Notes under the pieces: generated by a model
Database searches by the model: none
What the model was told of the DNA's origin: nothing
The model's input: only the letters and a program-made list of their open reading frames with translations
Shown here: piece by piece, positions 2,327-28,796 of the stretch
Numbering within the stretch: position 1 is the first letter of the stretch
Layout: each line of letters starts with the position of its first letter
Source of the DNA: Dermatophagoides farinae
Lineage: Eukaryota > Arthropoda > Arachnida > Sarcoptiformes > Pyroglyphidae
DNA length: 64,000 nt
Assembly: GCF_024713945.1 (NCBI RefSeq)
Contig: NC_134682.1
Span: 4,689,001-4,753,000, forward strand
Direction: 5' to 3'
Translations under genes and position numbers: made by a program

Positions 2327-4021
2327 ATGTTTTCGACTTTTACAATGGACATCATCATAATCACGTTGATGATAATGAACCCCTTGACTACAGAAGCACA
2401 AAAAGGTGATCCATCATTTATGCCGAAAATAATGCCCATAACCAGTACGGTAAATCGTACCGGTGTACAACGTGTTTATTGTACGGCAAATTCCCAGACA
2501 ATTGGCCAAACATCAACATTTGCCGTGGTGAATAATCGTCTTTATCAATTCATATATGACATGAGTGTAATAATTTTTGAAGATCTGGATGCCCATTATA
2601 ATGATGATCAACAACGTTTCTTTTTGGATATCGGTACACGTTATGAATTGATGGAAGATTGGGAAAAAATGCTCGCAGCAGATATGGATTATATTGGACG
2701 TTATCGTTTTATAATGAAAAATGTACCAGATGAACGTGATTGGCGCGTTACGATGGCAATGATAACACATCCATCATATGGTGCCGGATTCTTTTCATAT
2801 CTGGGATTTTCACGCTATTTTTATCTACTGTTTGTGAAATGGGATAAACAACCACCGGCAACAAGTAGTGATGTACCACAATCACAGCATATAATTCTAT
2901 CGAATTATTCAATCATCGTTTCGATATCAGCGGAAACGGAATATTTTGCTTTAGTACTAAGAAATGATCCAACAAATGGTGAAGACCTAGTTTTTGTTTA
3001 TCATCAACAAATCAACGAAAAATCCGTACCAAAAGGTACATTTTGTGAAAGTGAAACCGGTGAACAATATTTTCATCAACGTAAACCAAAAGATATTTGT
3101 AAAACTGGTTCACAATTATCACAAATGATGAGAGAATTTAATTTTGGATTTACTGCCCGTAAAAATCTTTATCTTGTTGCAAGTGAAGAACAATATGTTA
3201 TAGTCATTGATATTGGTGTATTGAAATCATACGATATGGAATATCCATATCAACGATACTCGTTGGATGAAGTATTTGTTTGTACTGCGGCAAGATCACC
3301 GGCTATTTATCCAACATTATATCCAAAAGGTGCTAGGCCAAATATTGAATCAGCCGAATTCTTGAACAACATGGAATCTGGTGGCGGTGGTGGTGGTAAT
3401 ACATGGTTATTTACGCCAACCGTATGGCTGATTATTGTTAGCCTGAATTTTGTTTTAGTCATATTGATAGGTGCATTATGTTTATTATATGTATCAAGAC
3501 GTAAAATTCGTGCACGTTCGGGAAAACCTGGTTTTGGTTCATTATGGTCATCAGTGTCATCATTGTCATCATCATCATCGGCAAGTGGAATATCATCGCG
3601 ATCATCATTCTCATCATCAACTGCATCGTCAAATGTTGGTAGCTCATTTTCATCTCGTGCAAGTAGTGGTGTATCATCATCGACAGCATCCTCAAGTGTA
3701 TCATCAGCCGCTTCATCCGGTGTATCATCATTTCAATCCAAATCAAATGTTCCCGGCGCAAAAGGAAAATTTTTTCGAAAGAAAAAATATTCGAAAAAGA
3801 AAAAATATCGTATACCAACATTTGGTCGATCCAAACTATCGAATGCATCATCAGCACAATCATCAGTCTGGAAATCAAAAGTTGGATCAACAGCATCATC
3901 ACGTGTATCATCATCAAGAATACCATCATCAGCCGTATCATCGATGCAATCAAAACAAGGTGGAAAGAAAATGAAATGGCAACAGTCACCGAAAAAGAAA
4001 GTTAAAATGAAAAAAAAATAA
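2327..4021 (+). CDS. Four-cysteine ectodomain family member, membrane-anchored (564 aa)
   Basis: Not a family I recognise. It is an intronless type I membrane protein: signal peptide (residues 1-24, ending TEAQ), an ectodomain of about 330 residues, one membrane span (about 363-388) and a cytoplasmic tail of about 175 residues. The ectodomain carries the four cysteines shared with the genes at 13471, 15078, 16501 and 27144. These are C52 in a segment followed by a NRLYQF-like motif, C240 (GTFC), C258 (DIC) and C319 (VFVC), with FNFGF and LYLVAS between the last two. The tail is almost entirely Ser/Ala with basic clusters (RKKKYSKKKKY and a final run of Lys), so it is low-complexity and highly charged. 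AATAAA overlaps the stop codon. Role unknown; a cell-surface receptor or adhesion protein is an inference from topology. Confidence 0.85.
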   Translation: MFSTFTMDIIIITLMIMNPLTTEAQKGDPSFMPKIMPITSTVNRTGVQRVYCTANSQTIGQTSTFAVVNNRLYQFIYDMSVIIFEDLDAHYNDDQQRFFLDIGTRYELMEDWEKMLAADMDYIGRYRFIMKNVPDERDWRVTMAMITHPSYGAGFFSYLGFSRYFYLLFVKWDKQPPATSSDVPQSQHIILSNYSIIVSISAETEYFALVLRNDPTNGEDLVFVYHQQINEKSVPKGTFCESETGEQYFHQRKPKDICKTGSQLSQMMREFNFGFTARKNLYLVASEEQYVIVIDIGVLKSYDMEYPYQRYSLDEVFVCTAARSPAIYPTLYPKGARPNIESAEFLNNMESGGGGGGNTWLFTPTVWLIIVSLNFVLVILIGALCLLYVSRRKIRARSGKPGFGSLWSSVSSLSSSSSASGISSRSSFSSSTASSNVGSSFSSRASSGVSSSTASSSVSSAASSGVSSFQSKSNVPGAKGKFFRKKKYSKKKKYRIPTFGRSKLSNASSAQSSVWKSKVGSTASSRVSSSRIPSSAVSSMQSKQGGKKMKWQQSPKKKVKMKKK

Positions 4022-4163
4022 AGGCCAACAAAAAAATCAGCGATTCTCAAAAAAGGAAAAATATCAATAGAATTTTATCTCATAATTATATAGAATTGCA
4101 AAAAAAAATTCACTCACAAAGAATTGGAATTGTTTTCTGTTTTTTTTTCATCGTTTTTTTATA

Positions 4164-7100
4164 TTATTGGCTACTAATATTACAATGATGTTGTTGTTGT
4201 TGTTGTTGATTTGTGGTTGTCGATTCTTGTTGTTGTTCTGAACAAAAATTTTTATAAATTTCCACACCTTTCGTTGATAATGATGAATTTTGAAGTTGAC
4301 TTTTCTCTGAATTATCGTTAAACGATCCAGAACTATCATTTTGTTGCTGTTGTTTGGTTGTGGATGGTGATGGTGGATTTGCAAGTTGAAAATTTTGTTC
4401 CAAATTATTTGTGGTAGTAGCGGCATGATGTGCACGTGCCCATTCACACATTAATTGTCCAGCATAAAGTGGATTTATGGAATAAAGCCAATTATACATT
4501 TCACGTGCTGTTGTTGTACGAAATAGATAACCAGCATGACGAGTGACTACTGAGAATGCATTCTCAACACATAACATTTGTCGCTGCTGTTCAGAACATT
4601 CAACACGTGCTTGTGTTAGATTTATAACCGATCGTTCAACAGGATCTTTATCATCACGATATATAAACATGTATGGTCTACGTACAACTATCCATTGTTT
4701 TTGCCATTGTGTTGGCTGTTGTTGTTGTTGTTGTGGTTGATTCGTTGTGGATGATGAATATTCACTTGCCATCAAACAGCTAATATAACCTTTTTTCGAT
4801 ATAATAGACGAGACGCGAACTTCTTCAATTTCCGGTACGAATAAATTATTATTAGTCGAAGATGATGATGGTGATATATCACCCATTGGACTATTACTAT
4901 GGCTATGTATCGATGTTGATTGTTGCTGCTGCTGCTGTTGTTGTTGATGATAATAATGTTGTGAATGATTGGCGGCAACTGTGAATGATAATTTTTCATG
5001 TTCAAACCAAGATTCAACAGCTAAACCTGATATGTCAGGTGTAACACCACCGCCATCTGGTGTTGATACATTTGATCCGGGAAAATATTCGGTTGGTGTC
5101 CGTAATAGATTAGTTGATGAACCTGGTGGTGGTGGTGGTGTCTGAAATATTGGTGCCGGTTGTGATGGTATATGAAATTGTATTAATTTAATACATTTAG
5201 CCACGAGGTTACGATCATTATCGGTGCGAAATTCTTCAACTTTTTCTCGTTCCAAAAGTGTTTCGATTCCTGCTGAAAATGTTGATGACCGTGGAATGGC
5301 TGCTGTTGACGATGCGCGGGTAGAAGCTGTCAAAGCTGAATTCGATGATAAACCAACATCTGCAGTTGTTACAGGTGATATAAGAGCCTGAGTTGTACTA
5401 CCACTTGCAACTGATAGATTTGAATTGGCCAATGCAGCTAAACTTAAACGTGATGCACTTGTTCTCATCATACCCGATGTCATTGATGAACGAATCGTTT
5501 TACCAGGTAAATCATTTAATTCATCTTCATCAAATGATTTTTGTAATGCCGTTGATTTAGCTGTACGAATCAATAGTCGATGACGACAACGTTCAACCAT
5601 TTCTAATCGATATAATTTTTCCAATTCCCATTGATGATCGAAAATCAAAGAATCACCACGTGGTTGCCAACCACCAAGATTTTCTTGTCCACGTACATAC
5701 ATTGTTGATGTATCCAATACACGTCGTTGACGACGTTGTACTCCTGGTGAACCAGCTTCTAATGATCGTCGTAATACTAATTCAAATATAGCCATTATAT
5801 GATTCAATTCAGCATTCTTATAGGAACCGGTTAGTATATTTTTCAATACACGTGTCGAAAGTCCGGAACCATGTGAACCACCGGTTAATAATGATGGAAT
5901 TGTACGTGAATCACGACCATAAATCATGACACATAAATCTTTAGTGAGAATTCCCGGTTGACTACAACGTTCTAGATCCAAATATGCTGACATTGTAAGA
6001 TAAACACGTTCACCACCAGGTGTTACACGATTCAACAGTAAAGAATTATGCAGTGAACTATCCCATGCTGCCTCATAACGAAAACGTACACGACCATCTT
6101 CCAATTGTTCCAAATGTTCGGAAAAAAATAATGATAATGATAAAACGGATGAATCATTTTCATCATCAAAATCTGAACAATCCAAATGGGTACGAACACG
6201 ACCAATAACCAGTTCACGAAGATCACGAAAATGAACATCAAAATCTGGATGATGCATAATAGTAACACGAATACGTCGTTGAATTCCTTGATGTAGTAGA
6301 AATGTTCCACGACATGGTGTATCATCATTATGATCAACAACTACCGGTAGATATTGACCATCTGGTGTCAGTTCACATACTTCAATCCAAACAATTAAAT
6401 CAACTTTTGAATGTACCAATGACGTAGATGCTGATGTAACCCGAGAAGCCATGATTTGCCATTCATTTACCAAACCAGGTGTAAATCGTGGTGAACGTAT
6501 CGGTGTTGACATTGGTAGATATGATGTTAATTGCATTCGTTTAGGTGGTGGACGTGGTAATCTATACATGATAAATTATTATTATTTTAATAAATCAATC
6601 AAAATTTAGATGAACTTGAACCACTAACCCAAGTTGATTTTGATTCATACTAGATGTTTGATTATTGTTTCCAGCAGTATTGTTGTTTCGAAATGGCCAA
6701 TTATTACTACCGACGTTACCAGCAGCATCAACGCCAAATATTGCTTCCCGATGTAATGGATGATGTTGATAGTGGCCATATAATTCGAAAATTATCGGTT
6801 CTTGCCTCAGGTATTCGATGAATGCACGTGTTACACGTACCGATATGTTTTGTGACCAATAAAAACCAGCTGAACGACCATTTTTACCTGCAGTATTTTT
6901 TACCGATTCCGTTGAAAATGCTTCCTGTGAAAGATGACGAAAATTAAATTGACAAAAAACATCAGCATATGATTTGGATAGCCCATAAAGTTGAATGATA
7001 GAAACACGAAACATAAAATCTTCATTCAATTTTAAATGAACAGGAATCATGATGGAATCATTTCTTAGGTTTTTTCCATCCGTATCGTTTTCGTCTTCCG

Positions 7101-10100
7101 TTTCTTTTTCTTCTTCTTTATGAACTCCTGATGATGATGATGATGATAATTTTGCATTTTTTTCATTTGTTTTGGATATTAATCGCGATAATTGTCGTTG
7201 TAATCGGCCACGTTCAATTATCTCCATCAATTGTACATCATCATCGACGAAATCAATCCTAGCATGTTGTTGTGTTTTTGGTGATTTACCCGAATCGATT
7301 GCTGTTGCTAAATCTTCTTCTAATGGAATGAATGAGGGAAAAAAATTTCATCATTTTGAAACAAAATTCAAAAAACACAAATCTGTTTTACCTGTTATCG
7401 GTTGTATGGACACTTTTAAATAGCCCATTACATCACCTTTTTCATTTGCAATCGATATACATTGTGTAATTGAACATTGTTCTAATAGATTCTGTACAAA
7501 CATCAAGCCACGACCAATAAAACGAAACCAAGGAAAACGATCATAAAATGGATCACTTGTTTCTGTTTCTACTGTTCCATTTTTGATACTGTTTGCATGG
7601 TAAATAGTAACACCAGTACCACCACCACTGTTGGTTGAATTTGATGGTATCGTTCCATTCAAATGTGATGATGATGATAACGATGAATGTTGCAAACTAC
7701 CAGTTGTGGTAGATGAAGAAGAAACAGTTGCATTAGCAGAAGCGGCAGCAATTGTTGCTGAATATTCTTCAGCATATTTTGCATATACTTGACGCATTAA
7801 TTCTAAACGTTTTCTATGAAAAAAAAAGATAAAGAAATCAGAAATCCTTCTATTTTTTTCACACAATTTTCACATACCTTAATTTACACAATGACCAATA
7901 ATGTGTGGCACCATTTTTTTGATCTTTCACTTCAACAGCAACAATTGTTCGTGGAAATGGATTATCATTCGTTGTGGAACACGTGGTAATGGTGGTGGTG
8001 GTAGCTGCAGTGATAGCCACACCAGAATCTGAGTGCAGATCTAAGGAACTTTTTTGATTTTGAAATTGATCACGATAATCGGCCAATAAATCCGGATGTA
8101 ATGGTGAATATATTGTATCCGTGAGTATAACAAATTGAAATTGAACACGTTTTTTCAATTCTACGGACATTGCATTTGCTTCTTTCAAGAATATAGCATT
8201 GCCCCATAAATCATCACGTAATGATGTGAATTGATGAAAACGCCATTTTAATGACGCTTTACGGGCCACAGATTCTTGCCACCATGTTAATGGTGTTTCA
8301 CATTCCATCTGGAAAAATATTGAATCCGATTCTGGAAATAGACGTCGATGTTCAGCTTCAGAACATTCATCATCATCATCGCAACCGCTTACGCTACTAT
8401 TATCACCACCGAATCGATAATGTCCAGAATGATGCATTGATGAAAACATTTGTGACATGGTCATTGATTGTTCATCCACCTGTTTCTGCAGTCGTTCAAT
8501 TGTTTGTTCATAATTTTTTCTAGCTTCTTCAAATGTTAAATCAGCTTCAGCTTTTTCACGTCGATATTGTTCTTCAAGTTGTAATAATTTCTTTTCCATT
8601 TCTAATTTCAAATCAATACCTTGTTTTTCTAGCAATTCCATTTGTGCAAATGTCCAATCTACAGCTTGCTGTTGTTGTTGTTGCTGCTTACTATATGTTG
8701 TTGTTATCAAATTGTTGTCTTGTATTGGATCTTTTGATCTAGATTCACGAACTTGACCTGGATGTTGAAAACGGAAGACATGATATTTTCCCAGGATAAC
8801 TCGTGCACCAGTACGTAATTCTTGATCGGTTTCTACTCTTCGACCATTAACAAAACATAGAGCTTCTGTTGAACATGGAATCAATGTTACTGTACCATTT
8901 CGATTTTCAAATATACAATGTTCAACAAGAATATTTGTTCCAGACAAACGAATATCCTGAGCAATACGTGCACCATCTTGTCCAACACGTGTTTCACCAT
9001 CTTTCAGATAATACAGCAAACATTCAGACATTAATGGATCTTCATTTAGATTCAAAAGATGTGGTGTATTGATTGGTGAGAAAACGCCAACAGCATCACC
9101 ATCAGCACGTCTTGCAACACCCATTTCAGCCAATACAGCTTCACGTTGTGCACGAATCTCTTCGGTACGTTTCAATTTTTCTTCCCATGTTGCATTCAAT
9201 TCAGACATGAGTTTTTCTGTTTCATGTAATTGTTCAATCACATTTTCACCGGTTACCGACATTGAACCACGTGTCAATTTTGGATGACCATGATGATTAT
9301 CAATTTGATGATCAACAGTAGTTGTTTGATGATGATCATTATTATCAAAGATATCATTATTATTAATTCGATCATCAGCTTGATTATTATTATCGTGTTG
9401 TTGTAGTTGTAGTAGTTGTTGTTGTTTTTGAAGATTATGATGATGTTGTTGATTATCATCGCTGGTGATCATGATCATTGATTTTTCCAATTCAATACCT
9501 TCAGCTCGTAAGATATTTTTAAGCCGAGCAATTTCATCACGAAGTTCACGTATCAGTTTTGCATTTGCATCTTCATTTATAATGGCCGCACACATTATTT
9601 GTTTAGCACGATCTGCATAACGTAATGTTGATAATGTTTCTTCATAATTAATATCAGCTGGTGATATGGCAGCAATCATTGCCGTTTTTGAATTACCGCC
9701 TAGATTTTCACGTAATAACCATGTAAGAACGGAATCACGATATGGTATAAAATCGGTTTTCTTTGATTTCTTTTTCTTGGCTGGATCTTGTGATGACTAT
9801 CAAATGGAAAAAAATGGTCAAATGAAGAAAATTTATACAAAAAAATCTTTTTAATAATAATTACCAATTCAGCTAAAGCGGAGATAACTTTACCCAATGT
9901 TGTCAATGATTTATTTATATTGGCACCTTCTTTTAGCCGTGTACCTTGTGCACCGGTTGAATCAGCACGTTCTGAACCGGCTAAATCAACTAATGATATT
10001 TTCGATACTTTCTCCGAACATAATCCAGTCATTTGATCTTGTTTCATTTGCGTCAATATTATTGTGAATACAGCATGCGATCTTGATGATGTTTCATTCA

Positions 10101-12894: not shown

Positions 12895-13290
12895 CTATAC
12901 CTTGCCAATTTTAGTAGTGACAGCAATCGATGATGAACTAGATTTAAATGTCTTCGACGACAGTAGAATTCGTTTAGACTTTGATGATGATAGTGGATGA
13001 TGATTACTACGTCTTTTCCGTCGTGTTTTATGTCGTCTTCGGCATCGTCGTCGTCGTCGTCGTTTTTTATCAACAACAACCACAGATCTGGACATTAACC
13101 ATCTAGATAGAATATGGTAACCGGTTAATATTAATGTAAACAATGTGAATAAAACGATTGCCGTAAATTTTCGATATATCGATGATGGTGATGATGATGA
13201 TGATGATTCGATTGTTGTTTTCAACGATGAATCAATCATATTATCTATGGTGATGATGGACGTTGTATCATTATTGGTTATTATGGCCAT
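12895..13290 (-). CDS. Small putative membrane ORF with Arg-rich and Ser-rich tail (131 aa)
   Basis: Unrecognised and uncertain. From the ATG at 13290 the frame encodes a Ser/Thr-rich N-terminus of about 45 residues, one membrane span (FTAIVLFTLFTLILTGYHIL) and a strongly basic stretch (KKRRRRRRCRRRHKTRRKRR). It ends in Ser/Lys-rich sequence. No signal peptide is seen. The arrangement of span, basic cluster and Ser-rich tail mirrors the C-terminal parts of the four-cysteine proteins at 2327 and 27144. It lies 180 bases downstream of the family member at 13471-14871, on the same strand, in head-to-tail order. It could be a small real gene, a last exon, or the remnant of a family copy that lost its ectodomain. 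Alternatively it is chance ORF sequence in simple-repeat DNA. Confidence 0.4.
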   Translation of the reverse strand: MAIITNNDTTSIITIDNMIDSSLKTTIESSSSSSPSSIYRKFTAIVLFTLFTLILTGYHILSRWLMSRSVVVVDKKRRRRRRCRRRHKTRRKRRSNHHPLSSSKSKRILLSSKTFKSSSSSIAVTTKIGKV

Positions 13291-13470
13291 CGATAAAATC
13301 GAACGTACACATAGACAATACTTTGAAGACGAAAAAAAAATACTCGAATTGAATTTGATTGGAATTTTGTAGCCGCGAATGCAAAAACGAAACAAAAAAA
13401 GAATTTTCAGATTGAATTAAATTTTCTGCTATTATTGTTGTTTTTGATTGATTGATTAAAATTTCGAATT

Positions 13471-14871
13471 TCATCTGTTCTGCGGTGGTTTCTGTTTCTG
13501 TTGTTGTTTCGTTATTTTCACAATCACCGGTGATGGTAATCTTTTGTTCATCATTTTCCATGGATTATTAATCTGCTTTTTCGTCATGATTACAGTGGTG
13601 GATGGTGATAACATTGATTGGTATTGGAATTTTTTTCGTTTCTGTCTTGTATGTGAATTTTTTCGCACAAATTTCTTGTAAATCATTAGTAATATACAAG
13701 CGAACAGCATCATAAATAATAGAAATTCAATGATGATTATTGCAAAAAATAATGGTGAAAAATGTCGATATAATGGCGGCAATGGACATTGGAAAAACGA
13801 TGTCCATGACAGCAATTGATAATGGACTTGATGTCGATCGGTTAATATTGATTTATCCATTTTTAAAATGAAAAATTTTCTATTCGAAATTAGATATAAT
13901 GAACCACGATGAATGAAACCAAAATCCAATGCCATCAATAGCCGATGAGTTTTCAATGGACCACTACATTCACCTGTTATCAGACGATTTATTTGATGTG
14001 ATCCGTTTGTTTGAACACATAATGAACCAAGATATTGGCCACCACCATTAGGTGGAAATTTATCACGTGTATGAAATAGCTGAAAATTATCATATGATGA
14101 TGATGAAATGACTGTTGATTCAAATTTTCGAATCCAATACAAATGATTTTGTTGTTGATCGGAAATCCATATAAAACTTTCACCATTCATTGGTTCTTCA
14201 TATACAATGTCCGATTGTTGTTTTTGTCCACCATGATGGTGATGATATTTGGTTCGTTGTCCGATTACGATGAAATAATCATAAATTCTTAGATGAAAAT
14301 GAAATATTTTTTCATGATTTATAAATGTTTGCACAGAAAGTTTTGGTGGCCAAATTTTTAAATTTTGTTTTTTTCGATCACGATGATGATGATGATTATC
14401 ATCATTGGGAAATAATAATGAATCACCACCAGTATATTTTATCTGATTCAATTGTTTTTCATTCAATTCAACATGAAATTCACCATCATCTGATGATGAT
14501 TCTGTTAGTGCTAATGAATAGAATGGTTTTCGTTCGCCATTATATCTAGTAGAACGGAAATTAAATTGATTCAAAGAATCATCACCATCATCATCATCAT
14601 AATGTACACCAGCCATTTCATCGAATATTGTTACATGTGCAAAAGAATCAAATAGATACCATCGTTTATTATTAATCGATGATATCGATACTAGATCTTT
14701 ATCGAATGTTAATCGTATGTTGTTGTCATCACCATTACTTTTACTATTACTACTGCCGCCACTTTTCCAATATTGATGTTTTTCCCATGAACATGACCAA
14801 TAAACATTGCCATTTACAAATGAAATTATCATCATTATCGTCATTATTATTTTTTCATGGTAAAATGGCAT
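13471..14871 (-). CDS. Four-cysteine ectodomain family member, membrane-anchored (466 aa)
   Basis: Intronless. The signal peptide ends near SFVNGNVYWSC. The ectodomain is the most diverged of the five: the N-terminal Cys (SCSW) is kept, a WYLF takes the place of the YQF motif, and VTIFDE follows. The later block is clear: GSLC, GEC, LDFGF, LYLIS and a final FFQC. A membrane span (FFAIIIIEFLLFMMLFACILLMIY) follows about 15 residues after the last Cys. The short basic tail (KKFVRKN, RQKRKKF) ends in Gln/Lys/Pro. An Asp- and His-rich low-complexity insert interrupts the ectodomain. It is the last full member of a three-gene head-to-tail cluster on this strand. Function unknown; membership rests on the ordered cysteines and flanking motifs. 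Confidence 0.78.
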   Translation of the reverse strand: MPFYHEKIIMTIMMIISFVNGNVYWSCSWEKHQYWKSGGSSNSKSNGDDNNIRLTFDKDLVSISSINNKRWYLFDSFAHVTIFDEMAGVHYDDDDGDDSLNQFNFRSTRYNGERKPFYSLALTESSSDDGEFHVELNEKQLNQIKYTGGDSLLFPNDDNHHHHRDRKKQNLKIWPPKLSVQTFINHEKIFHFHLRIYDYFIVIGQRTKYHHHHGGQKQQSDIVYEEPMNGESFIWISDQQQNHLYWIRKFESTVISSSSYDNFQLFHTRDKFPPNGGGQYLGSLCVQTNGSHQINRLITGECSGPLKTHRLLMALDFGFIHRGSLYLISNRKFFILKMDKSILTDRHQVHYQLLSWTSFFQCPLPPLYRHFSPLFFAIIIIEFLLFMMLFACILLMIYKKFVRKNSHTRQKRKKFQYQSMLSPSTTVIMTKKQINNPWKMMNKRLPSPVIVKITKQQQKQKPPQNR

Positions 14872-15077: not shown

Positions 15078-16253
15078 TCAATATCTTCTCATAACCATAC
15101 GTTTTTTACGTCTTTTATCATCATCATCTTTCATTGGTTCATCCAAACGTTTAATATTAGGATTTTTATCGCAAACAAAAAAATCTATCAATTTATGTGT
15201 ATGATATGTATAATCATGTTCAAAATTTGTTAAAACTCTACGATTAATCAGAATGGCCATTTCTTTTGTCGGTGAAATCAATGCCAATTGTGTGAATGTC
15301 GTGAAACCATATTGAACTGTTTCCAATAAATGAACCAATGCATTTTTTTTACCATCATTTTCATCACCATATTCACAATCATTTTTGCCACTTAAACGTA
15401 ATGAATTCTCTTTTTTATAGCCTAAACATAGTTTTCCAAAGAATACATTGTCCATGTACATATCATCGGCATAGATTAAAAAATCATTTTGATCGATTCT
15501 ATGTGCAATCTGAAAGAAACGTGTACCAGCCGATATTGGTATAGTACGAATACGTTGATCATTCATTTCATATTCAAAACGAAATTCTGGTCCAGTTTCA
15601 ATGTGGTTAGCATGTTGTGAACACATCCATGATTGATAATCGGCAACCATAATACGTGCACGCCATTCGAAACCATGTGCCGGACGTGTTAATGACATCC
15701 ATAATCGTGATCCATTTGTAGGCAAATAATTCATAATAAATTGTGATCGTTCACGAAAACCACCATTTTTGACCATTTCTGATGCAATACGTTCTAAATC
15801 CACTTGATAACCATCGATTAAATGTAAACGATCCGGATGTAGTGAATATTTTTGCCGTGATTGTGGATAAATGGTTACTTTGAAATCTCGATGAAATTGA
15901 AATATATGATTATCACAAATTGAAATTGCTATTGTATTTTCTTCCAATAGATCTTTAGTGGCGCCACAATCAATTTGTGTGGATTCTTTCAACACAGACA
16001 TCGGTATATTCCATTTGATTAATTTACCAAAATTTTCATCTCTACCATGTAAAAGATTATGAAGAATTTGTCTTGATGGATGCTGTTCATCATCATCATT
16101 ATTATCATCATTATGAAATTTGTTTTTTATACCCGTACCGGTACTAGTAGTAGTAGTAGTAGTAGTAATAATAGTATCTGAATCGACAATCGTTATAATA
16201 ATTGATGATGATAATGATAATACCATCAACAACAAATATGATGATTTCATCAT
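15078..16253 (-). CDS. Four-cysteine ectodomain family member, secreted form (391 aa)
   Basis: Intronless. I take the ATG at 16253 as start because MMKSSYLLLMVLSLSSSIII is a good signal peptide. An in-frame ATG 63 bases upstream would add a second hydrophobic stretch and is less likely. After a Thr-rich spacer come the family hallmarks: DCGATKD, IAISICDNHIFQF, VTIYP, LHLIDGY, GKLC, NDC, VQYGF, LALIS and DFFVC. There is no membrane span; the protein ends in a basic tail (KRRKKRMVMRRY), so it is predicted to be secreted. It sits 206 bases downstream of the paralogue that starts at 17589 and 206 bases upstream of the one that starts at 14871. Function unknown. Confidence 0.82.
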   Translation of the reverse strand: MMKSSYLLLMVLSLSSSIIITIVDSDTIITTTTTTTSTGTGIKNKFHNDDNNDDDEQHPSRQILHNLLHGRDENFGKLIKWNIPMSVLKESTQIDCGATKDLLEENTIAISICDNHIFQFHRDFKVTIYPQSRQKYSLHPDRLHLIDGYQVDLERIASEMVKNGGFRERSQFIMNYLPTNGSRLWMSLTRPAHGFEWRARIMVADYQSWMCSQHANHIETGPEFRFEYEMNDQRIRTIPISAGTRFFQIAHRIDQNDFLIYADDMYMDNVFFGKLCLGYKKENSLRLSGKNDCEYGDENDGKKNALVHLLETVQYGFTTFTQLALISPTKEMAILINRRVLTNFEHDYTYHTHKLIDFFVCDKNPNIKRLDEPMKDDDDKRRKKRMVMRRY

Positions 16254-16500: not shown

Positions 16501-17589
16501 TTAAAAATTTTGTTGTTCACAATTAAAAAAATCTTTTGCATTTTTCAATTGAAATGGAAATTCTTTGCCAATCATACGCAATAAATTACGATCAACAATC
16601 AATACGGTATTCTGTTCACGTGATACCAATATTAATTTCGTTAACACAATGAAACCATATTGAAATGAACGAATTAAACTGATCAATGATTTGGACATCA
16701 CTTCGAATGGTTCTAAATATTGACAATTATTTGTTTCACTTATCATACGTAACATTTGTGTTGAATGTACACCATAACATAATGTTGATAAATGTGTTGT
16801 CATATTGAAATCAATGATTTTAATAACATCAGTATTTTGTTCATGAATCATATTTAAAACTTGATCACCATATGAAATGACCACCATATGATAGCTTTGT
16901 GTTGATCTTAATGAATGATAATCATAATAATGTAGATCATTGTCACTGTCCATTGCATTACCATCATTGGATGATGGAAATTCGCCCACCAACCAGAAAC
17001 GATTACAGCATAACAAAAGACGGCTAAAAAAATTGAAACCTTTATATCTTTGCCATATTAACGATGTGGTTAGCCGCTGTTTACGTGTCTGTGGATAGCC
17101 CCAATATAAATCTGTTAAACGTTTTTGAAAATTGCCCATATAATCATAATCGGTGATAATTTGATTAACACCAAGTTTATAGCCATCATAAAGATGTAAA
17201 TGATTTTTTTCATTCGAATAACGATAACGTGCTTGATCATAGATTATAACATCAACATATGTTGGATCTCTACTTTCTGTTAATTTTTTACCATATGTAC
17301 TGGTGGTAAATTGATATATACGATTCATAATAACAGCTATAGATACGGTATTTTCAAACAAATTCTTATCATAACCACATTTTATATGGTCATGTTTTTT
17401 CACATCCACCAATGAATGATACCATGTGTGTAGGCCAAATTTTTGATAACCAATATTATCATCTTTATAAATACCATGTGAATGTAGAAAATCTTCTAAT
17501 GTTTCGGCTTCATTTTGATGGCTAATTTCTGGATAAATTATCATTATTATTCCCATAACATAACTGATCATAATGGAAATGTATTGCAT
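16501..17589 (-). CDS. Four-cysteine ectodomain family member, secreted form (362 aa)
   Basis: Intronless. It begins MQYISIMISYVMGIIMIIYP, a signal peptide. It shows the family pattern in its cleanest form: KCGYDKN, VSIAVIMNRIYQF, VIIYDQ, LHLYDGY, STLC, NNC, FQYGF, LILVS, VLIVDRNLL and DFFNCEQQNF at the extreme C-terminus. No membrane span or tail follows the last Cys, so it should be fully secreted. It is the first gene of the three-gene head-to-tail cluster. With 27144 and 15078 it defines the core domain, about 300 residues from the first to the fourth Cys. Function unknown. Confidence 0.85.
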   Translation of the reverse strand: MQYISIMISYVMGIIMIIYPEISHQNEAETLEDFLHSHGIYKDDNIGYQKFGLHTWYHSLVDVKKHDHIKCGYDKNLFENTVSIAVIMNRIYQFTTSTYGKKLTESRDPTYVDVIIYDQARYRYSNEKNHLHLYDGYKLGVNQIITDYDYMGNFQKRLTDLYWGYPQTRKQRLTTSLIWQRYKGFNFFSRLLLCCNRFWLVGEFPSSNDGNAMDSDNDLHYYDYHSLRSTQSYHMVVISYGDQVLNMIHEQNTDVIKIIDFNMTTHLSTLCYGVHSTQMLRMISETNNCQYLEPFEVMSKSLISLIRSFQYGFIVLTKLILVSREQNTVLIVDRNLLRMIGKEFPFQLKNAKDFFNCEQQNF

Positions 17590-18860: not shown

Positions 18861-18935
18861 ATGATCCTGATGGGTGCAATGGAATCAACACTAGATTCTT
18901 TAACACAATTATCATCATCACCGGCATTTTCATCA

Positions 18936-18966
<31 letters not shown>

Positions 18967-20066
18967 CATCAAAAGAAACACATAGTTCATCGAAAACAAA
19001 TCCAAAACGACGACCATCATCTACAAAACATGATCGTGAACAGCAACAACAACAAGAACAAAAACCAAATCTACGAAGACCAAAATTAGTACATCGTAAT
19101 GTAACACGTTTCTATGAGATACCATTTGGTCCATATCGTCGTCCAGAAGATGTATTACGATCATTTGGTTATGAATTAATTCGTGAATTAGATCGTGGTG
19201 CTTATGGTGTTGTTTACATTGCACATGATCTAAGAAAAGAAATGAAAGTGGCATGTAAACAAATTGAAATGGATCGAACATTTCATCGTAATGTGTTTGA
19301 AGAAAATAAAAACGAACTATTAACTATTGAACGTGTACGACATCCATATGTGATAAAAGTTTATTGTCATTTTGTTGTACAAGGTAATGGTTTTAATCGA
19401 ATGTACATATTTATGGCATTAGCTGATGGTGGAAATTTATATAAATTCATTCGAAATCGTAATACACTTATTACGGAAGAAAAATGTCGTTTATATTTTG
19501 CACAAATTCTTTGCGGTATCAATCACATGCATTCCGTTGGCATTGCACATCGTGATATTAAACCACAAAATGTTCTTCTTTGTTCAAATCGTAATTCTAT
19601 TTCTGGTGATTATCTACTAGTTGTTACAGATTTTGGTCTAAGTAAAGTCGTTACTGATCAACAACAATTAGCAATGTCTATTTGTGGTACACCGGTATTT
19701 ATGGCCCCCGAATTATTACAATCAAAACCATATAATCCATTTGCGGCCGATGTTTGGGCACTGGGCATTACATTATTTCAAATGTTATCAATGGAATTAC
19801 CATTTAATTTTCATCAACCACAAGAATTTATTATACAATCAATGATGGATAAAAAAATAGCATGGGAATCGGCATTTCGTAGAACACGACAACAGCCATC
19901 AAATGAATATAAACAACTTGTACGTTCAATGCTTAATCCAGATTCAAATCGTCGAATACGTATGATTAACATAACCAATCATCCATGGATTGTACGTGAA
20001 TATGCAATGGCCGAATCGACTAGTCGTTCATTACGATCATCAATGCGTTCACATCATCATCATTAG
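18861..20066 (+). CDS. Serine/threonine protein kinase, subfamily unclear
   Basis: Intronless, 401 residues. A Ser-rich N-terminus of about 50 residues and a Gln run are followed by one complete kinase domain (about 105-375). The domain has a nucleotide loop (LDRGAYGVVY), VACKQIE with the catalytic Lys, HRDIKPQNVLL catalytic loop, DFGLSKV, GTPVFMAPELL activation segment and DVWALGITLFQML. In the glycine loop the first Gly of GxGxxG is Asp. All catalytic residues (Lys, HRD Asp, DFG Asp, APE Glu) are present, so activity is expected. The best guess is a CAMK/TSSK-like Ser/Thr kinase; I cannot name an orthologue. The C-terminus is a His run. Starts at Met1, Met4 or Met7 are all possible; none is conserved enough to decide. 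Confidence 0.85.
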
Positions 20067-20162
20067 TAATAAAATAATATAATAATCATGATAATTAAAA
20101 TAAAAAAATATTTTTCAATTTTATTTTTCATGTTTGTGATTGGTGGTGGTCATTATCATTTG

Positions 20163-21752
20163 TTAAACTTTAAATACAATTGCCTGTTGTAGATTCGATA
20201 AACGATTAGCCCATTTTTCCAATGCCTGATAACGTGTTTGATCTTCTTGGCGACAATTTTCCAATACAAGCACCTGATTCACCTGGTCGATACGTCCTTT
20301 GATCACACTGTGTGGTGATGATGGTAAAAAAATGGTAATTAATTGAATGGAATTTTTTTTTTGAAAAATAAAAAAAAACTTACTTATCCAATATACAGGA
20401 TACAAGTAAACTTTCAACATCCGAAACATCAATATTCAGTTCTTTCGCTATGAATGGTATTTGTATACGTGTATAAGGTTTAATCAATTTGATCAATACT
20501 TGTGTACGAATATTACACATTAAATCTTCAATATGTTCTTTGATGAATGGATCATCCATTATGGTACGACGATTTTGACGAATAATTTTTTCAAATTCAT
20601 GTATATCATTATTTTGATATGCATTCACCAAATTGGTCATTGCCAATATTTCTGAATCATTTTTATATGGTTTAGCTTCTTGAGAATCAAATGGATTTAT
20701 ATCGGATTTCATTAACATATTGGCTAGAACTAAATATTTAAGACAAGTCGTTCGTCTTGGCGAGCCGGATTCGTCATAGTTTTTGAATGCTTCGAAAAAA
20801 TCCGTATGTGCTTTATCGTATTCATCTTCACGTAGATGCATTTTACCGCCACATTCACGAATCACACCCATTATCAGTGGATGTGGAATGGCCGATTTGA
20901 TGCATAATGATTTTTCATAAAGTTTCTATTGAAAATGAAAAAAAAAATTTTTTGATTCAAAAAAAAAACCACCATGATTTTGTTTTTACCTTTAATTTTT
21001 TATTATTCTTCTGTTCCGTATACATTTGAATCTCCAATGCATAAATCTCCAATAGTTGTGTACCTTTTTTCAGATCATCACTACCATCATCATTTTGACA
21101 TGATTGATGTAGTTGTTTAAGAATTTTAGACAATTTCTTAAAATCTTTACATTCATAATATAATTTTCCAAGCTTTATATTCGTTTTGAACCAAAGACGA
21201 TCATTTTTAGCATCTTTCAATGCATCCAATGTTGTTTCATAGAAATTCTGCAACAGAACCATCTGTTTTGATGTCGATATATAATCCAATATTGAATTGA
21301 TTGATTTTTCCGAATAATTACGAGTGACAGCATTTTTTATATATGTTAATAACATTTTATAACGTCGCATCATTTCTTCATAGTTGCCCTGCAAGTTATT
21401 CAATGAATTATTGAATGAATGAATCAAAAATAAAACTTACGAGTCGAAAATTAATTTTAATCATCTGCTTCAATGCTTTAAATCCCCATTCACCTTTTTC
21501 ACCATTTTCCAGATCCAATACTTGTTGAAAACTTTCCAATGCTTTTTCCGGTGTATCTTTTAATGCTTTAGAATTATAATATTGATTCTCTAAATCAACA
21601 TCGGGTTCAGAATTGGAATCTTCAGAATATTCCTATATATTTCAATGATGAAATCATATATGTCATGTAAACAAATTGACAAAAGAAAATAAACATACCA
21701 AATCATAGCTATCATCGCTATTATCACACATGAAATCATCTTGATCAGACAT
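20163..21752 (-). CDS. CSN2: COP9 signalosome subunit 2
   Basis: Scaffold subunit of the COP9 signalosome, which removes NEDD8 from cullin ubiquitin ligases. Five exons with consistent phases: 21699-21752, 21441-21632, 20990-21388, 20384-20925 and 20163-20307. They give 443 residues, the same length as human CSN2/TRIP15. Near-identity to the animal protein is visible throughout: [69 protein letters not shown] and [20 protein letters not shown]. The C-terminal PCI domain includes [18 protein letters not shown] and ends [10 protein letters not shown]. The N-terminus [10 protein letters not shown] also matches. Introns are 52-76 bases. Head-to-head with UBA2. Confidence 0.97.
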
Positions 21753-22297
21753 CTTTGATGTTAATTGATCGAATGAATTTTGTTAGATAAATTTCAATCA
21801 AATCAGAATAAACAAATGAAAAAGAATACTTTGTGTGTGTGTGTGCGTAGAAATAATGGAACACAAATTATGCATTACCCTATTTTCATGTGTTCAAAAT
21901 CAAATTTTACAAATCCAAAAAGTGAATGGTGTTTATGAATGGTACAATGATTGGATATTGTTGAATGAAAAAAAAACAATTTCAAACTGCGAAAACACGA
22001 TAAATATGTTCGTCATCTATGAGCAACATCTTGAATTTAGGCTCTATTTTTTTTACAATGCTTTTTACACAATTTTTTTTTCATTGTCTTTTGTGATCAA
22101 TGGAGCTGCGGCGAAAATTATTTGATGATTATAACATAACACGACCATTCATGACCATTAATTATCACCATCATCGTCATCATAATCATCATCATCTGTC
22201 TTATGTATCTTGAATCATTATTTGTTTCTACAGCTGTAAGGATTTTATTCGTTTTGATTAAATATATTTCCAACACTAAATCGAATAATCGAACAAA
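21753..22297. promoter_or_regulatory. Divergent promoter region, CSN2 and UBA2
   Basis: 545 bases between the two start codons. It contains a short TG run near 21834-21844 and CAT/ATC repeats near 22160-22195. A plus-strand open frame (21835-22125) has no family resemblance and is not called. Confidence 0.5.
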
Positions 22298-24511
22298 ATG
22301 TCAACATCATCAATATTGTTGAATAGTGAACAAATTCTTCAATTAACATTTGGTGATAAAGATATAGTTCGACGAATTAAATCATCAAATATATTATTAG
22401 TTGGTGCCGGTGGTATTGGTTGTGAAGTATTAAAAGGTCTTATATTAAGTGGATTTCCACGTATTACAATTATTGATTTAGATACAATTGATGTATCGAA
22501 TTTGAATCGACAATTTCTGTATAATAAAACACATGTTGGTAAATCTAAAGCAGTTGTTGCAGCTGAAATTTCTATCGAACGTTTTGCACATCATGATCCA
22601 TTGACCAAAAAACCATTATCGATAATTGAACCAATTCATGATTCAATATTGAATCTTAAATATGATCGACAATTTTATCAACAATTCACATTCATTATAA
22701 ATGCATTGGATAATAATACAACACGTGTACATGTGAATCGTCTTTGTTTAGCTGCCGATCGTCCATTAATTGAATCTGGTTCGGCTGGTTATTTTGGCAA
22801 TGTTACGTTGATCAAAGGTGGCGTAACGAAATGTTTTGAATGTATACCACCAAAAAAAGATGAAAATTCCTATGCATCATGTACGATTCGTAATACACCA
22901 TCATTACCAATACATTGTATTGTATGGGCCAAGCATTTATTTGCACAATTATTTGGACAAAGTGATGAAGATATTAGTCCAGATGCAACGGTCATTACAA
23001 ATGATGACGACGATCAAAATGATTATAATGAACAACAACAATTAAACATGAATCATCAAACTACAAGACAATTTGTTGAATCCAATGATTATGATCCAAA
23101 ATGTTTATTTAATAAAATCTTTTATCATGATATTCGTTACCTGAAAGGAATGAAAAATTTATGGGAAAATCGTAAAAATCGTCATGAACCACAAGAATTG
23201 TCATATGATCAAATTATTAATGGAAAGATTCGTTTTGAAGATCAACAACAATTGCCGCAGCAAGATAAAGAATCAAATGGTAATGGTCAAACGACATCAT
23301 CATCATCGAAAATAATCAATGATCAACGTTTATGGACAATGAATGAATGTTTAGATATATTTATTGAAAGTCTTTCAAAGCTAAAAGATCGGTTAAAACA
23401 ATGTAATGGTGGTGGTGGTGGTGGTGGTTGCCTTGAATGGGATAAAGATGATGATATTGCTGTCGATTTTGTAACATCTGTTTCAAATTTTCGTTGTTAT
23501 TGTTTTTATATAGCAAGAAAATCAAAATTTGAAGTCAAATCATTAGCTGGTAATATTATACCGGCTATATCGACAACAAATGCAATTGTTGGTGGTGGTT
23601 ATGTATTGCTTGAATCGATTCGCTTGTTGCAATCATTATTACCGCAAAGAATTTTCAAAGAATCAGAATGGAAACCAACCGAAATGGAATTGGCTAAAGA
23701 ATCCACTAGTATTATGATGAATTGTTTTTCCGTGTTTATTTCGAATAAAAATCTACCAAATTTAAGCAAAACAGCTATTGAAGAATTATTACCACCAATT
23801 ACCAATTGTCTGGCTTGTTCTGGAAAAGTTCGTGAAGTAATCGTAGAATTATCATTTGCAAAAATTACATTAGCTGATTTGATTGAACAATTAGTAATGA
23901 AAAAATTTAAAACCGTTGCCCCGGATATTAATTGTTATGATTTAAAGAAAATGATCTATGCTGCTGACGATGAAGATGAATTGAAAGAATCAACATCATT
24001 TTATCGTTCGACAACATTGGAATCATTAGGATATTTTTATGATAATATTTGTTTGAATATTCAAGATTTAGAACAAGATTTCCAAGTAAACATACGGCTA
24101 CGAAATGTACAATTTACATTGGATGAAGAAGAACAATTAAATGGTGATTTATTTCGTGTATTGTTAGATGAAAATGAATTGAATAAAATTCATCAAGAAC
24201 AACAGCAACAACAACAAAAAACAGCTGATAATAATCAACAAAATGGACAAAATGATATTGAAACAATCATTGATGGTGTTGATGAAGAAGAAAATCGAAT
24301 AACAAAATTGAAACGAAAAACAATCGAATCATCATCATCATCATCATTGGATGAACAACAGCAAAAAATGTCAACTATCGATTTAATAGATGATGATGAT
24401 GATGATGATGAAATCGAATGTTTAATGGATAATGATGATAGACAACAACAACAACAACAATCAGAACTGGAAATGGAACCACCATCAACCAAACGTTTAC
24501 GGGCCAATTAA
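22298..24511 (+). CDS. UBA2: SUMO-activating enzyme subunit 2 (UBA2/SAE2)
   Basis: Catalytic subunit of the SUMO E1. It adenylates SUMO with partner SAE1, then carries it as a thioester before transfer to UBC9 in the nucleus. Intronless, 737 residues. Features: adenylation motif GAGGIGCEVLKGL, SNLNRQFLY, catalytic Cys195 in SYASCTIRNTPS, zinc-binding pairs CFECIPPK and CLACSGK, and GNIIPAISTTNAIVGG. A ubiquitin-fold domain follows (KITLADLIEQL to about 610). The C-terminus is low-complexity and acidic with [13 protein letters not shown], which looks like a SUMO-interacting motif, and ends with a basic KRLR (possible nuclear localisation). Human UBA2 has 640 residues; the extra length is Gln, Gly and Asp runs. 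Convergent with PHM downstream. Confidence 0.96.
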   Translation: MSTSSILLNSEQILQLTFGDKDIVRRIKSSNILLVGAGGIGCEVLKGLILSGFPRITIIDLDTIDVSNLNRQFLYNKTHVGKSKAVVAAEISIERFAHHDPLTKKPLSIIEPIHDSILNLKYDRQFYQQFTFIINALDNNTTRVHVNRLCLAADRPLIESGSAGYFGNVTLIKGGVTKCFECIPPKKDENSYASCTIRNTPSLPIHCIVWAKHLFAQLFGQSDEDISPDATVITNDDDDQNDYNEQQQLNMNHQTTRQFVESNDYDPKCLFNKIFYHDIRYLKGMKNLWENRKNRHEPQELSYDQIINGKIRFEDQQQLPQQDKESNGNGQTTSSSSKIINDQRLWTMNECLDIFIESLSKLKDRLKQCNGGGGGGGCLEWDKDDDIAVDFVTSVSNFRCYCFYIARKSKFEVKSLAGNIIPAISTTNAIVGGGYVLLESIRLLQSLLPQRIFKESEWKPTEMELAKESTSIMMNCFSVFISNKNLPNLSKTAIEELLPPITNCLACSGKVREVIVELSFAKITLADLIEQLVMKKFKTVAPDINCYDLKKMIYAADDEDELKESTSFYRSTTLESLGYFYDNICLNIQDLEQDFQVNIRLRNVQFTLDEEEQLNGDLFRVLLDENELNKIHQEQQQQQQKTADNNQQNGQNDIETIIDGVDEEENRITKLKRKTIESSSSSSLDEQQQKMSTIDLIDDDDDDDEIECLMDNDDRQQQQQQSELEMEPPSTKRLRAN

Positions 24512-24812
24512 TCGAATATATTGAATCGAATGATTTTCTTAGATTTTCTTTTCATTTAAAAATTGATTTTTTTAATATAAATCAAAATAACCTTTTTTTC
24601 TTGTATGTGAGGGGTGTGTTTGTGTTTGTGGTTGTAATTTATCATTTTCACCATCATTGATCATCATCATAATAATAAGCGATAACAATAATTTATAGAT
24701 AAATGAAAAATTTTTTCCATTTTGGTTGTTGTTTTGGATTTGAAATTCTTTTTGTTCACTGTTTTGACCAGATTGATTGATTAATTGATTGATTGAATCA
24801 ATTTTCGTTTAT
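24512..24812. other. Convergent 3' intergenic region
   Basis: Short region shared by the 3' ends of UBA2 (plus) and PHM (minus). It holds TATATAA-like and T-rich sequence, a TG-rich stretch near 24605-24635 and GATT repeats near 24772-24795. No gene. Confidence 0.6.
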
Positions 24813-26128
24813 TCATGGAAATTTATTCGTTTCTTCTGTAATCTGTTTTGATACACGAAAAACATTATCCCAATAAAAATTTGGTGGTCCAGCGGTGAAA
24901 CAAATTTTCTTCTTAAGATTATGATCCATACGTTCAAAATAATACATGATATAAAAATTACACATTTCATCATCACCTGTGGAACCAATTTGTACTGGAT
25001 GTGATTGATTATTATACATCGTACAACGTGCAACAACCATATCACCAGGGTGTATAGAAATTGTTTCATGAATTGGATAAAACATTTGTGGCAACTGGGG
25101 ATTGCCTTTACCAATCAATTGCCAACGATTATTACGATCGATACGATAACCAGTGACCACTTTACCTAATTTATGTGTATGTGTTCGAAATGCAAACGGA
25201 TGTATAATAATATTTTCACGCATTTGACATGCACTGTCAAAATAGTCTAGAAAAATTGGTAAACAAAAAAAAGTTGATTCGAAAAATGATGATCAATTTT
25301 TATTTTTATTTACCAAGTGAATGTGGTTGAATCACACCACCGGTAGCCAATAACAAAACACCGGCCAATTTATCGATTCTAAAGTTTGAAAATAAAATGA
25401 AATGAAATGAACATCATCATTTTTTAAATTTCATCAATTACTGTTGTGTTTCCTGTGGTAACATTCGTAACGTTATTCCTGAATGATCGGTATCACCATC
25501 TGATTTTTAAATGAAAAATATTATCAAAAATGTTTCATATACAGATGAACTTACTTCGAAAACGATGAACATGTGCATAATGAACCTGTAATACGAGATA
25601 ATTGATATCTGATCCATAACCAACTTTGAATCCAACACCTTTTGGCAGTTTTAATGCCGGTGCATCCATAGCCCAACTATAGACAATTTGTGATTGTCCT
25701 TTACAGACTGGTCCACGTGGAAAAAATTCCCTTTCCGATGGATCAATTGATTGATCATCATCATCATCATCAAGATGATTATTAGCAAATGTCATTTCAC
25801 CACAATCCCAAACAGCACGTGGTGTATCACGTTCATAATAACCGGGTATTTGACAACCATATATCAATATATGATGTGCTGTTTGTTTAGTTGCATTCGG
25901 CAAATATTCAACAATAAATTCATGTTCATAACGTGGCATTCTAAATGCCGTACAAAGGTAGGTTTCTGGTTGCATAGGTCGTACATCTGGCATTAACATT
26001 GGAAAATATTTACTATTTTCAGCATATTCATTTTCTTTTTCTAGATGTTGTCGTGCTGTAACCAGATTCCATGATAATGATATCAAAACAATAATACTGA
26101 AGAATACTAATGATGAATGGAATGCCAT
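24813..26128 (-). CDS. Phm: Peptidylglycine alpha-hydroxylating monooxygenase (PHM), monofunctional
   Basis: Copper- and ascorbate-dependent enzyme that hydroxylates C-terminal glycine of neuropeptide precursors in the secretory pathway, the first step of amidation. Four exons with consistent phases: 25555-26128, 25442-25499, 25314-25378 and 24813-25246, giving 376 residues. Signal peptide MAFHSSLVFFSIIVLISLSW. Copper A ligands are in QTAHHILIYGC; copper B ligands are HTH in FRTHTHKLG and the Met in DEMCNFYIMYY. Other marks are VLQVHYAH, NPQLPQMFYP and VVARCTMYNN. Introns are 55-67 bases. The protein ends after the PHM catalytic core with no PAL lyase domain. It is therefore a single-function enzyme as in insects, and a separate PAL gene is expected elsewhere. 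Confidence 0.95.
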
Positions 26129-27143
26129 TTTCGATATATTCTTGAATGTTTTTGAATTAAATACATAAATTGGATTAAATCACGTTGAAAACTGGTAGGT
26201 GTTTATCACACACACACACACACAATAACTTTGATTAAATTTCAATTTTTTTTCGTTTAAATTTTTTTTAATATAAAAAAGAACGAGATTCTTTTGAACG
26301 ATTATACGATTGTACTTATGACATTTTCATTTCAAAAGAATTCAAGAATCCAAGTTGGAACTTGAGAACACTCATACATACATACACAACAACTCGAAAT
26401 AAAGATGGAGGACAATCTTGATATGGATTGAGTTTCGTTATAAAAAAAAAATTGAGAAGAGCATGAGCATCAAGTGTTGTTGCTGAAGTGAATATTTCAT
26501 TGAATTCTTGAAATTCACTATATAGAAATGAATAATGGCAATGAGAATTTATTTTTTTCTGGAACCATATCTTCTTGATATCCCACCATAAAGAACCACA
26601 CTGTTGCTATATTGTTTTTGAATTTCAGTATATTTAAGCAATTTGATTGTTGACGGGGTTTTTTTTCCGTCTCTCTATTGTCGTTGTTCAAATCATTTGT
26701 AAATAAAAATTTTCTGGAAATGACGTCGATACACTGTGTACTGTGTGTGTGTGTGTATGAGTGTTTGATGATGATAAAGAATTTTGATTCATCAAAATCG
26801 GATACAAAATGTGTGTTTATAACTCATTTTTGATATAAACAACACAACAAACGTTTTTTTTTCTCTCTAATAATTTTTGATGATAGTGTTGCCAATGATA
26901 ACAACAACAACAACAATATGATTCAAGGTGATGACGAATTGAGAGAAACAAGACTAAATAGAATGAAATGAGAGTGTTGAATGGACATTGACATTTAGTT
27001 GGTTGGTTGATTGATCAACCGGTTGAAATTTTTTTTTTTTATTGTTTTTCTCGTTTGTTTTATTTTTATTTTTTTTTTTATTTTGTTGAAATTGAAATTT
27101 TCAATCATCACATTAATTATTTATTGATTGATTGATTATTGAT
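26129..27143. other. Intergenic region, no gene seen
   Basis: About 1 kb between the PHM start and the 3' end of the 27144 gene. It contains CA and TG runs (near 26208-26224 and 26742-26756), an ACA run near 26902-26917, T-rich tracts (27027-27085) and GATT repeats near 27120-27140. No coding region is supportable. The PHM promoter is presumably at the left end. Confidence 0.6.
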
Positions 27144-28796
27144 TTATTTTCTTGATCTTTTCTTCATCATTTTTGATGCAGCCGATGATGCAGCTGATGA
27201 TGCAAATGATGATCCTACTGCTGATGATCCAATTTTTCGTTTACCTTTACCACCCATTTTTGAAAATGGTGATACTTTTTTTCGTTTACCACCCCCCATT
27301 TTAGATGGTGAAAATTTAGATCGTACACCTGATGTCATTCTTGATGATGATGACATACCACTTAATAATGTTGAACCGGCTGTCGATGATCCTCTGGATG
27401 ATGCACGTGATGAAAATGATGATGATGATGTTGATGATAGATTTGATGATGATGACATTGATGATGAAAATCTTGATCCACCACTACCACCAATACCACC
27501 ACCACCACGGCCATCAACAACAATACCGGCTTTACGTTCACGTTGTTTAACAATATAAAAAACAACAAATAAGATAATCAACATTAGAATATTTTTCACT
27601 GTAAAAATAACCAATGTTAAAAGACGATAGAATTTATCCGATTTTGACAATTCTGGTAATTCAGGTAATTCTTGTAGTTGATGTTGCTGTTGTTGATCAC
27701 CTTGACCACTTAATACAGTTGGTGGTTGTGTTGGTTTTTGTCCACGTTGAAATGGTTTAATTGTTGTGGATGGTTGCTGTCCAGCACCAACAATTGGCCA
27801 TGGTTCTTTTGGTATTGAATCTGATTCTTTCACAAATTGTGATGGTGGTGATTGACAATGGAAAAAATCTTGTAATTTTTTAATCCAAAATCTTGATTCA
27901 TGATTACGTTTTTCCAATACCATTTTATCCGTATAAATTACATATTGTTCTTCATATTTTGTTCCAACCAAATAGACAGTATTTTCAGCAATAAATCCAT
28001 AATGTACAGCTTGCAATAGAAATGTGGTTGTATTACAATGACGTTGTTGTTCTTGCAATCGGAATGCATTCCGTTGTGAAAGTGAAAAACAAAGATAACC
28101 AATCGGTCTGTTCATTTCGACATCCCAATTTACTTGCACTGTATTCGATTCACTATTATGACCAATGGTGATCAATAATGATGCAAAATGATCCGATTTA
28201 CCACTACTAATAATAATAATTGATTGATGTGATGTTTGTGGATATTTTCGTTGTTCAGATTTTATCGTACCTAATGAACCACGAAATAGAATATTGCGAA
28301 ATTTTTTTCCATCCGAACTAATCATAAAATTCAATGCAAATTGTGATTGTTGATCAGCAAACAAACCCAATGATATAAAACGACGCATATATTCACCATT
28401 CTCATCTGTGGACATTTCATTCCAAACTTGTTTTAAATTTTCATCGGATTTACTAAAAAATGATGGATAACTTTTTTCCAACGATATCATTTGACCATCA
28501 TGTAGATATAATCGATGATTAGTTGCATCATAACTGGTTTTCACTGCTTTATATACAATAATCATATGATTTTTAGTATATTGCCATATATTATCATATA
28601 CAATGCCTATTGCTGCGGTTATTTTGTCAATATTTGCTTCTGAATTACTACAACTTATACCGGAATTCACAGCAACTATTGGTGGATGTTCTTGTTGATT
28701 TATATGTTCAATATTTTCCATCATTATAATAATGATGATCATGATGATGGTAATGGAATATGAATGCCTCCATTCATTATTTTTGGGCATAATCAT
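27144..28796 (-). CDS. Four-cysteine ectodomain family member, membrane-anchored (550 aa)
   Basis: Intronless. The hydrophobic start (SITIIMIIIIIM) serves as signal peptide or anchor. The ectodomain has the family series: GISCSN, AIGIVYDNIWQY, LYLHDGQ, IGYLCFS, RHC, VHYGF, VYLVG, VIYTDKMVLE and DFFHCQ. A Pro/Gln-rich stalk leads to a membrane span (LLTLVIFTVKNILMLIILFV). The cytoplasmic tail is Gly-rich, then Ser-rich, then Lys-rich (KMGGGKRKKVSPF, KMGGKGKRKIG) and ends KMMKKRSRK. This closely parallels the gene at 2327, more than 23 kb away on the opposite strand, suggesting these two are the closest pair in architecture. Function unknown. Confidence 0.85.
   Translation of the reverse strand: MIMPKNNEWRHSYSITIIMIIIIIMMENIEHINQQEHPPIVAVNSGISCSNSEANIDKITAAIGIVYDNIWQYTKNHMIIVYKAVKTSYDATNHRLYLHDGQMISLEKSYPSFFSKSDENLKQVWNEMSTDENGEYMRRFISLGLFADQQSQFALNFMISSDGKKFRNILFRGSLGTIKSEQRKYPQTSHQSIIIISSGKSDHFASLLITIGHNSESNTVQVNWDVEMNRPIGYLCFSLSQRNAFRLQEQQRHCNTTTFLLQAVHYGFIAENTVYLVGTKYEEQYVIYTDKMVLEKRNHESRFWIKKLQDFFHCQSPPSQFVKESDSIPKEPWPIVGAGQQPSTTIKPFQRGQKPTQPPTVLSGQGDQQQQHQLQELPELPELSKSDKFYRLLTLVIFTVKNILMLIILFVVFYIVKQRERKAGIVVDGRGGGGIGGSGGSRFSSSMSSSSNLSSTSSSSFSSRASSRGSSTAGSTLLSGMSSSSRMTSGVRSKFSPSKMGGGKRKKVSPFSKMGGKGKRKIGSSAVGSSFASSAASSAASKMMKKRSRK

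Follow-up and report, generated by a model that had tools for sequence, protein, structure and literature searches.

Comparison with the 4BetaP proteins

In the house dust mite Dermatophagoides pteronyssinus, at least 119 genes whose expression is 2.7- to 429.7-fold higher in males have been described as a new family, 4BetaP (PMC12105342). These proteins start with an N-terminal transmembrane helix, which is followed by a four-blade beta-propeller outside the cell and, generally, by at least one more transmembrane helix and a disordered cytoplasmic tail whose length varies. No domain besides the propeller is described, and the four-bladed reading comes from AlphaFold. Here we compare with this family five genes in a 64,000-nucleotide stretch of Dermatophagoides farinae (contig NC_134682.1, positions 4,689,001 to 4,753,000, forward strand; referred to as the window), which are most likely, by analogy of layout, further members of 4BetaP, new or already catalogued, rather than a new protein type.

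The same source reports that the sperm of D. pteronyssinus are aflagellate, that all 17 testis-specific kinase-like genes are male enriched, and that two germline-expressed Caenorhabditis elegans proteins, Q22625 and Q19393, are structurally similar to one 4BetaP protein; this last similarity would speak against a strict confinement of the fold to mites or arachnids. Among the matches listed for the 4BetaP name in the literature, PMC12105342 was the one relevant source. The male genes highlighted in a second report encode short proteins, and no propeller is mentioned with them (PMC6806590); passages of PMC4930577 contained nothing on the subject.

The five genes, named by their first coordinates, appear to share with 4BetaP an N-terminal hydrophobic segment and an extracellular all-beta domain that can be read as a propeller. 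The anchored members likewise have a predicted transmembrane helix followed by a variable-length tail that looks disordered, and the family is similarly large and divergent, with no other known domain. The four-cysteine pattern of the five genes and the cationic tails of three are not mentioned in the section that describes 4BetaP. Each gene is a single open frame in the list of open reading frames (ORFs), at the coordinates of the initial annotation. Their features are given below (aa, amino acids; HMM, hidden Markov model; pLDDT, predicted local distance difference test; pTM, predicted template modeling score).

2327..4021, plus strand: family member 1 (P0001, 564 aa), ORF, HMM E 3e-21; core Cys 52, 240, 258, 319; one transmembrane segment; tail rich in Ser/Lys, with no acidic residues
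2447..3292, plus strand: member 1 ectodomain, modeled as all-beta, pLDDT 58.7, pTM 0.67
3428..3484, plus strand: member 1 transmembrane segment by hydropathy (residues 368-386); the cationic tail comes next
13471..14871, minus strand: family member 2 (P0002, 466 aa), ORF, HMM E 4e-10; core Cys 27, 285, 302, 362; one transmembrane segment; short basic tail
13684..13740, minus strand: member 2 transmembrane segment by hydropathy (residues 378-396)
15078..16253, minus strand: family member 3 (P0003, 391 aa), ORF, HMM E 1.2e-34; core Cys 96, 276, 293, 361, plus 113 and 211; hydrophobic N terminus; no C-terminal transmembrane segment
15159..15998, minus strand: member 3 ectodomain, modeled, pLDDT 64.5, pTM 0.73; sheets readable as four blades; residues 72-148 mostly at pLDDT < 50
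16501..17589, minus strand: family member 4 (P0004, 362 aa), ORF, HMM E 1.6e-27; core Cys 71, 271, 289, 357, plus 194 and 195; hydrophobic N terminus; ectodomain reaches the end, no C-terminal transmembrane segment
27144..28796, minus strand: family member 5 (P0005, 550 aa), ORF, HMM E 8e-24; hydrophobic N terminus; core Cys 49, 236, 254, 314; linker; transmembrane segment; tail rich in Ser/Lys
27558..27614, minus strand: member 5 transmembrane segment by hydropathy (residues 395-413)

Homology of the five genes

Profile HMMs were built from four ectodomains at a time and searched against the six-frame translation of the window. In each of the five runs the omitted member was recovered at the E value listed above, with the best non-member at E 0.33, 0.43, 0.41, 0.2, and 0.71 for members 1 to 5, respectively. 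As a control, every member was shuffled 1,000 times; 947, 910, 927, 979, and 985 of these shuffles (in the same order) scored at all, and their maxima were 10.4, 7.0, 10.8, 9.5, and 10.9 bits versus 75, 38, 117, 95, and 85 bits for the real sequences. In Smith-Waterman alignments, no shuffle out of 500 reached the real score in eight of the ten pairs. The remaining pairs both involve 13471, whose scores with 15078 and 16501 were reached by 2/500 and 3/500 shuffles; this gene is thus the weakest member pairwise, yet it is secure by profile. It is also the most divergent of the five and has the longest ectodomain, while the adjacent members 15078 and 16501 are mutually closest (27% over 300 columns by BLASTP).

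Chance resemblance of the five ORFs is thus excluded by the pairwise shuffles, the leave-one-out HMMs, and the profile shuffle control. Judged from their sequences, the five neighboring genes are one real, homologous, fast-diverging family with five members in the window, which bears out the single family of low identity proposed in the initial annotation. The full five-member profile, searched in six frames, found no sixth member in the window (next E, 0.53). Searches with single proteins found no relatives in viral contigs (P0001 and P0005) or in prokaryote genome contigs (P0001 and P0004), but as neither collection consists of animal genomes, these negatives are little informative.

Cysteines and shared motifs

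Four cysteines (C1 to C4) align in all five members, in agreement with the initial annotation, which had also called their spacing fixed. This holds for C2-C3 (17-18 residues) and loosely for C3-C4 (60-68 residues), but not for C1-C2 (180-258 residues). The ectodomains of 15078 and 16501 have two extra cysteines apiece. The motifs were counted exactly as first written and inside the ectodomain only: [FV]FxC is the sole pattern present throughout (5/5), [QDN][YF]GF is found in four members, and [RN][IL][YWF]Q[FY], L[HYF]L.DG, G.LC, and L.L[VIL][SG] in three each. The five genes yield a working signature, C1 ... GxLC - 17/18 - C ... [YF]GF ... [FV]FxC, which, with the layout, could allow the family to be traced across mites and a role in fertilization to be tested.

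Termini, anchors, and tails

Transmembrane and N-terminal segments were called by a 19-residue hydropathy window. A signal peptide had been proposed for every member; the N terminus exceeds the hydropathy threshold in three (15078, 16501, and 27144), and the shorter hydrophobic start of 2327 and 13471 is seen by eye only. A C-terminal transmembrane segment followed by a tail was called in 2327, 13471, and 27144, and the products of 15078 and 16501 look secreted by the same sequence measure. The proposal of secreted or surface proteins is therefore supported, with three members anchored and two secreted-looking.

The tails are unusually cationic: that of 2327 (176 aa) has 37 Lys/Arg, no Asp/Glu, and 62 Ser, that of 13471 (68 aa) has 19 Lys/Arg and no Asp/Glu, and that of 27144 (135 aa) has 27 Lys/Arg, 2 Asp/Glu, and 43 Ser. 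Only 2/500 shuffles reach the real score between the tails of members 1 and 5, but two of the three tails are of low complexity, so this likeness is weak evidence. Likeness did not go beyond shuffles between the tails of members 1 and 2 (34/500 reach the real score) or of members 2 and 5 (132/500). Anchored and apparently secreted forms thus lie side by side.

Just downstream of 13471 lies a 131-aa ORF (12895-13290, minus strand) with one hydrophobic segment, no Pfam match, and a strongly basic tail (26 K/R and 1 D/E in 70 residues). It was considered as a tail-only relic, but its tail is not distinctive: 163, 18, and 257 of 500 shuffles reach its scores against the three family tails.

Predicted fold of the ectodomain

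AlphaFold models of the 2327 and 15078 ectodomains, which are not independent because both used the alignment of the same five sequences, are almost all beta. The strands of the 15078 model (22-28/31-36/40-44/58-67; 98-104/111-118/121-127; 150-157/160-167/172-178/184-192; 230-233/237-242/247-252/262-269) can be sorted into four sets, each of three or four strands, the pattern of a four-bladed propeller; this blade count is a reading of the strand list. Foldseek searches of the PDB gave 598 (2327) and 838 (15078) matches at E values up to 10, the best at 1.7e-2 and 1.8e-3, respectively. The best 50 for each model are largely what we take to be beta-propellers of several blade numbers (WD40, YWTD of LDLR and LRP6, BamB, nidogen, and MMP-13 hemopexin); a few are not propellers, among them a DNA sliding clamp (15078) and an immunoglobulin and a beta-lactoglobulin (2327). 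The propeller class is thus plausible, with no particular relative singled out by Foldseek, and there is weak support for a small beta-propeller that probably has four blades.

The models might instead mislead, the ectodomain having another all-beta or a novel fold. The alignment of five sequences is shallow, pLDDT is 58.7 and 64.5, and no Foldseek match to either model reached E 0.001 or better. We nevertheless consider this quite unlikely: pTM is 0.67 to 0.73, the strand order is blade-like in the confident parts, propellers occur in both Foldseek lists, and the look-alike 4BetaP family was read as four-bladed from AlphaFold in the published report (PMC12105342).

The Pfam scan gave no family above the cutoff for any of the five proteins, in line with the initial annotation. 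Matches below threshold differ from member to member and comprise Cupin_2 (E 0.0011), 2OG-FeII_Oxy_3, Comm, and Tmemb_9 for 13471 and Orf78 (E 0.009) for 27144. The five-row profile matched no PDB sequence at E up to 10, and P0005 alone gave a single chance-level match (E 0.53). The refuting outcome named in the initial annotation, that the shared motifs fall within a known common domain, probably applies at the level of fold, where the models are propeller-like, although no Pfam model covers the region.

A known propeller family could also have given rise to these genes as a divergent branch, either of the YWTD type or hemopexin-like, with four blades and an end-to-end disulfide. The hemopexin domain (PF00045) is a four-bladed propeller and, like the ectodomain of the five genes, has cysteines at either end. 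The Foldseek list for 15078 includes MMP-13 (rank 42, E 2.8e-2, TMq 0.23), the LDL receptor, and LRP6. To hemopexin, the five genes show no Pfam sequence match and only a weak structural one. Hemopexin membership, an early idea prompted by the cysteines at the ends and by the blade-like strands, found no support in Pfam, where the hemopexin repeat profile went unmatched at E values as high as 10. Since no Pfam propeller family was matched at that threshold, the profile found no PDB sequence, and the structural scores are too low to pick one family, we judge such an origin very unlikely.

Probable assignment to 4BetaP and a possible role

The five genes appear to share with 4BetaP the same unusual order of parts, and on this ground we infer that they are likely to be members of the D. 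pteronyssinus family or of the equivalent family in a related mite. The initial annotation had left them unassigned, a view that is not supported in light of the published family of the same architecture (PMC12105342). Several points weigh against our assignment. It was made by architecture, not by sequence. Two of the five genes, 15078 and 16501, differ from the general 4BetaP layout in having neither a C-terminal transmembrane segment nor a tail by hydropathy. Model confidence is modest, with the blade 2 region of 15078 mostly at pLDDT < 50, and template modeling (TM) scores are at most 0.33 throughout the best 50 Foldseek matches of each model. Profile comparison found no blade-to-blade sequence similarity in any of the six pairs (probability at most 0.3%), although this absence neither helps nor excludes a propeller.

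Some of these points would also fit a separate mite family with a similar propeller-plus-tail layout, not homologous to 4BetaP and with a function outside reproduction, for instance in recognizing hosts or microbes: the link is by layout, not sequence, two members are of the secreted type, and four receptor-like multi-span genes, along with other family clusters, lie in the same window. Against this, the layouts agree in part order, in the lack of other domains, and in the variable tail, and a house dust mite family of 119 genes is expected to turn up in such windows. We regard a separate family as unlikely.

Membership of 4BetaP would also bear on function. This family has no sequence model in Pfam and no known function. 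Its 119 or more genes are overexpressed in males (PMC12105342), so they are likely to act in sperm, seminal fluid, or mating, and this may by analogy extend to the five genes. C1 and C4, which flank the domain, may close the propeller ring through a putative disulfide, and a second putative disulfide between C2 and C3 could fix the loop that precedes the last blade. Outside the cell, the propeller head would bind a partner or ligand; inside, the cationic tail might attach to the membrane or to an acidic partner. The two tail-less members could be secreted forms of this head. A more elaborate scheme, which we think improbable as a whole, is that the cluster holds paired forms of one binding head, anchored ones with acid-poor cationic tails and, between them, secreted ones with two extra cysteines. 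Such forms could take part in mating, as receptors on the sperm surface and as soluble partners or decoys; the family, with more than 100 members, would be diversifying under sexual selection in mites whose sperm lack flagella.

Amid the five genes lies an intronless kinase gene (18861-20066, plus strand; Pfam Pkinase, E 3.4e-59). Its best PDB sequence matches are CaMK1 and CHK2, and it could be a testis-specific kinase.

Other genes in the window

The initial annotation had set the intronless family against spliced neighbors. By sequence the five are single frames, and the kinesin gene of the window is spread over several ORFs; however, three other neighbors are also single ORFs, so the contrast does not discriminate the family.

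22298-24511: UBA2-like, single ORF with its domain
34168-35589: ORC2-like, single ORF with its domain
45147-45812: GST, single ORF with its domain

Four multi-span proteins (54951-56285, minus; 56674-58068, minus; 59049-60485, plus; 63428-63913, minus) have a common C-terminal motif, FG..CGQ.FFI.K. They resemble arthropod gustatory receptors by eye and have no Pfam match at E 0.001. Among these receptor-like genes lies a retroelement ORF (60788-63001, plus strand) in which Pfam identifies a zinc knuckle, an aspartyl protease, and a reverse transcriptase; it ends before any integrase match. At 46881-51686 on the minus strand, three short-chain-dehydrogenase-like ORFs (46881, 49430, and 51030) lie in tandem, and adh_short was found in the first, the sole one scanned.

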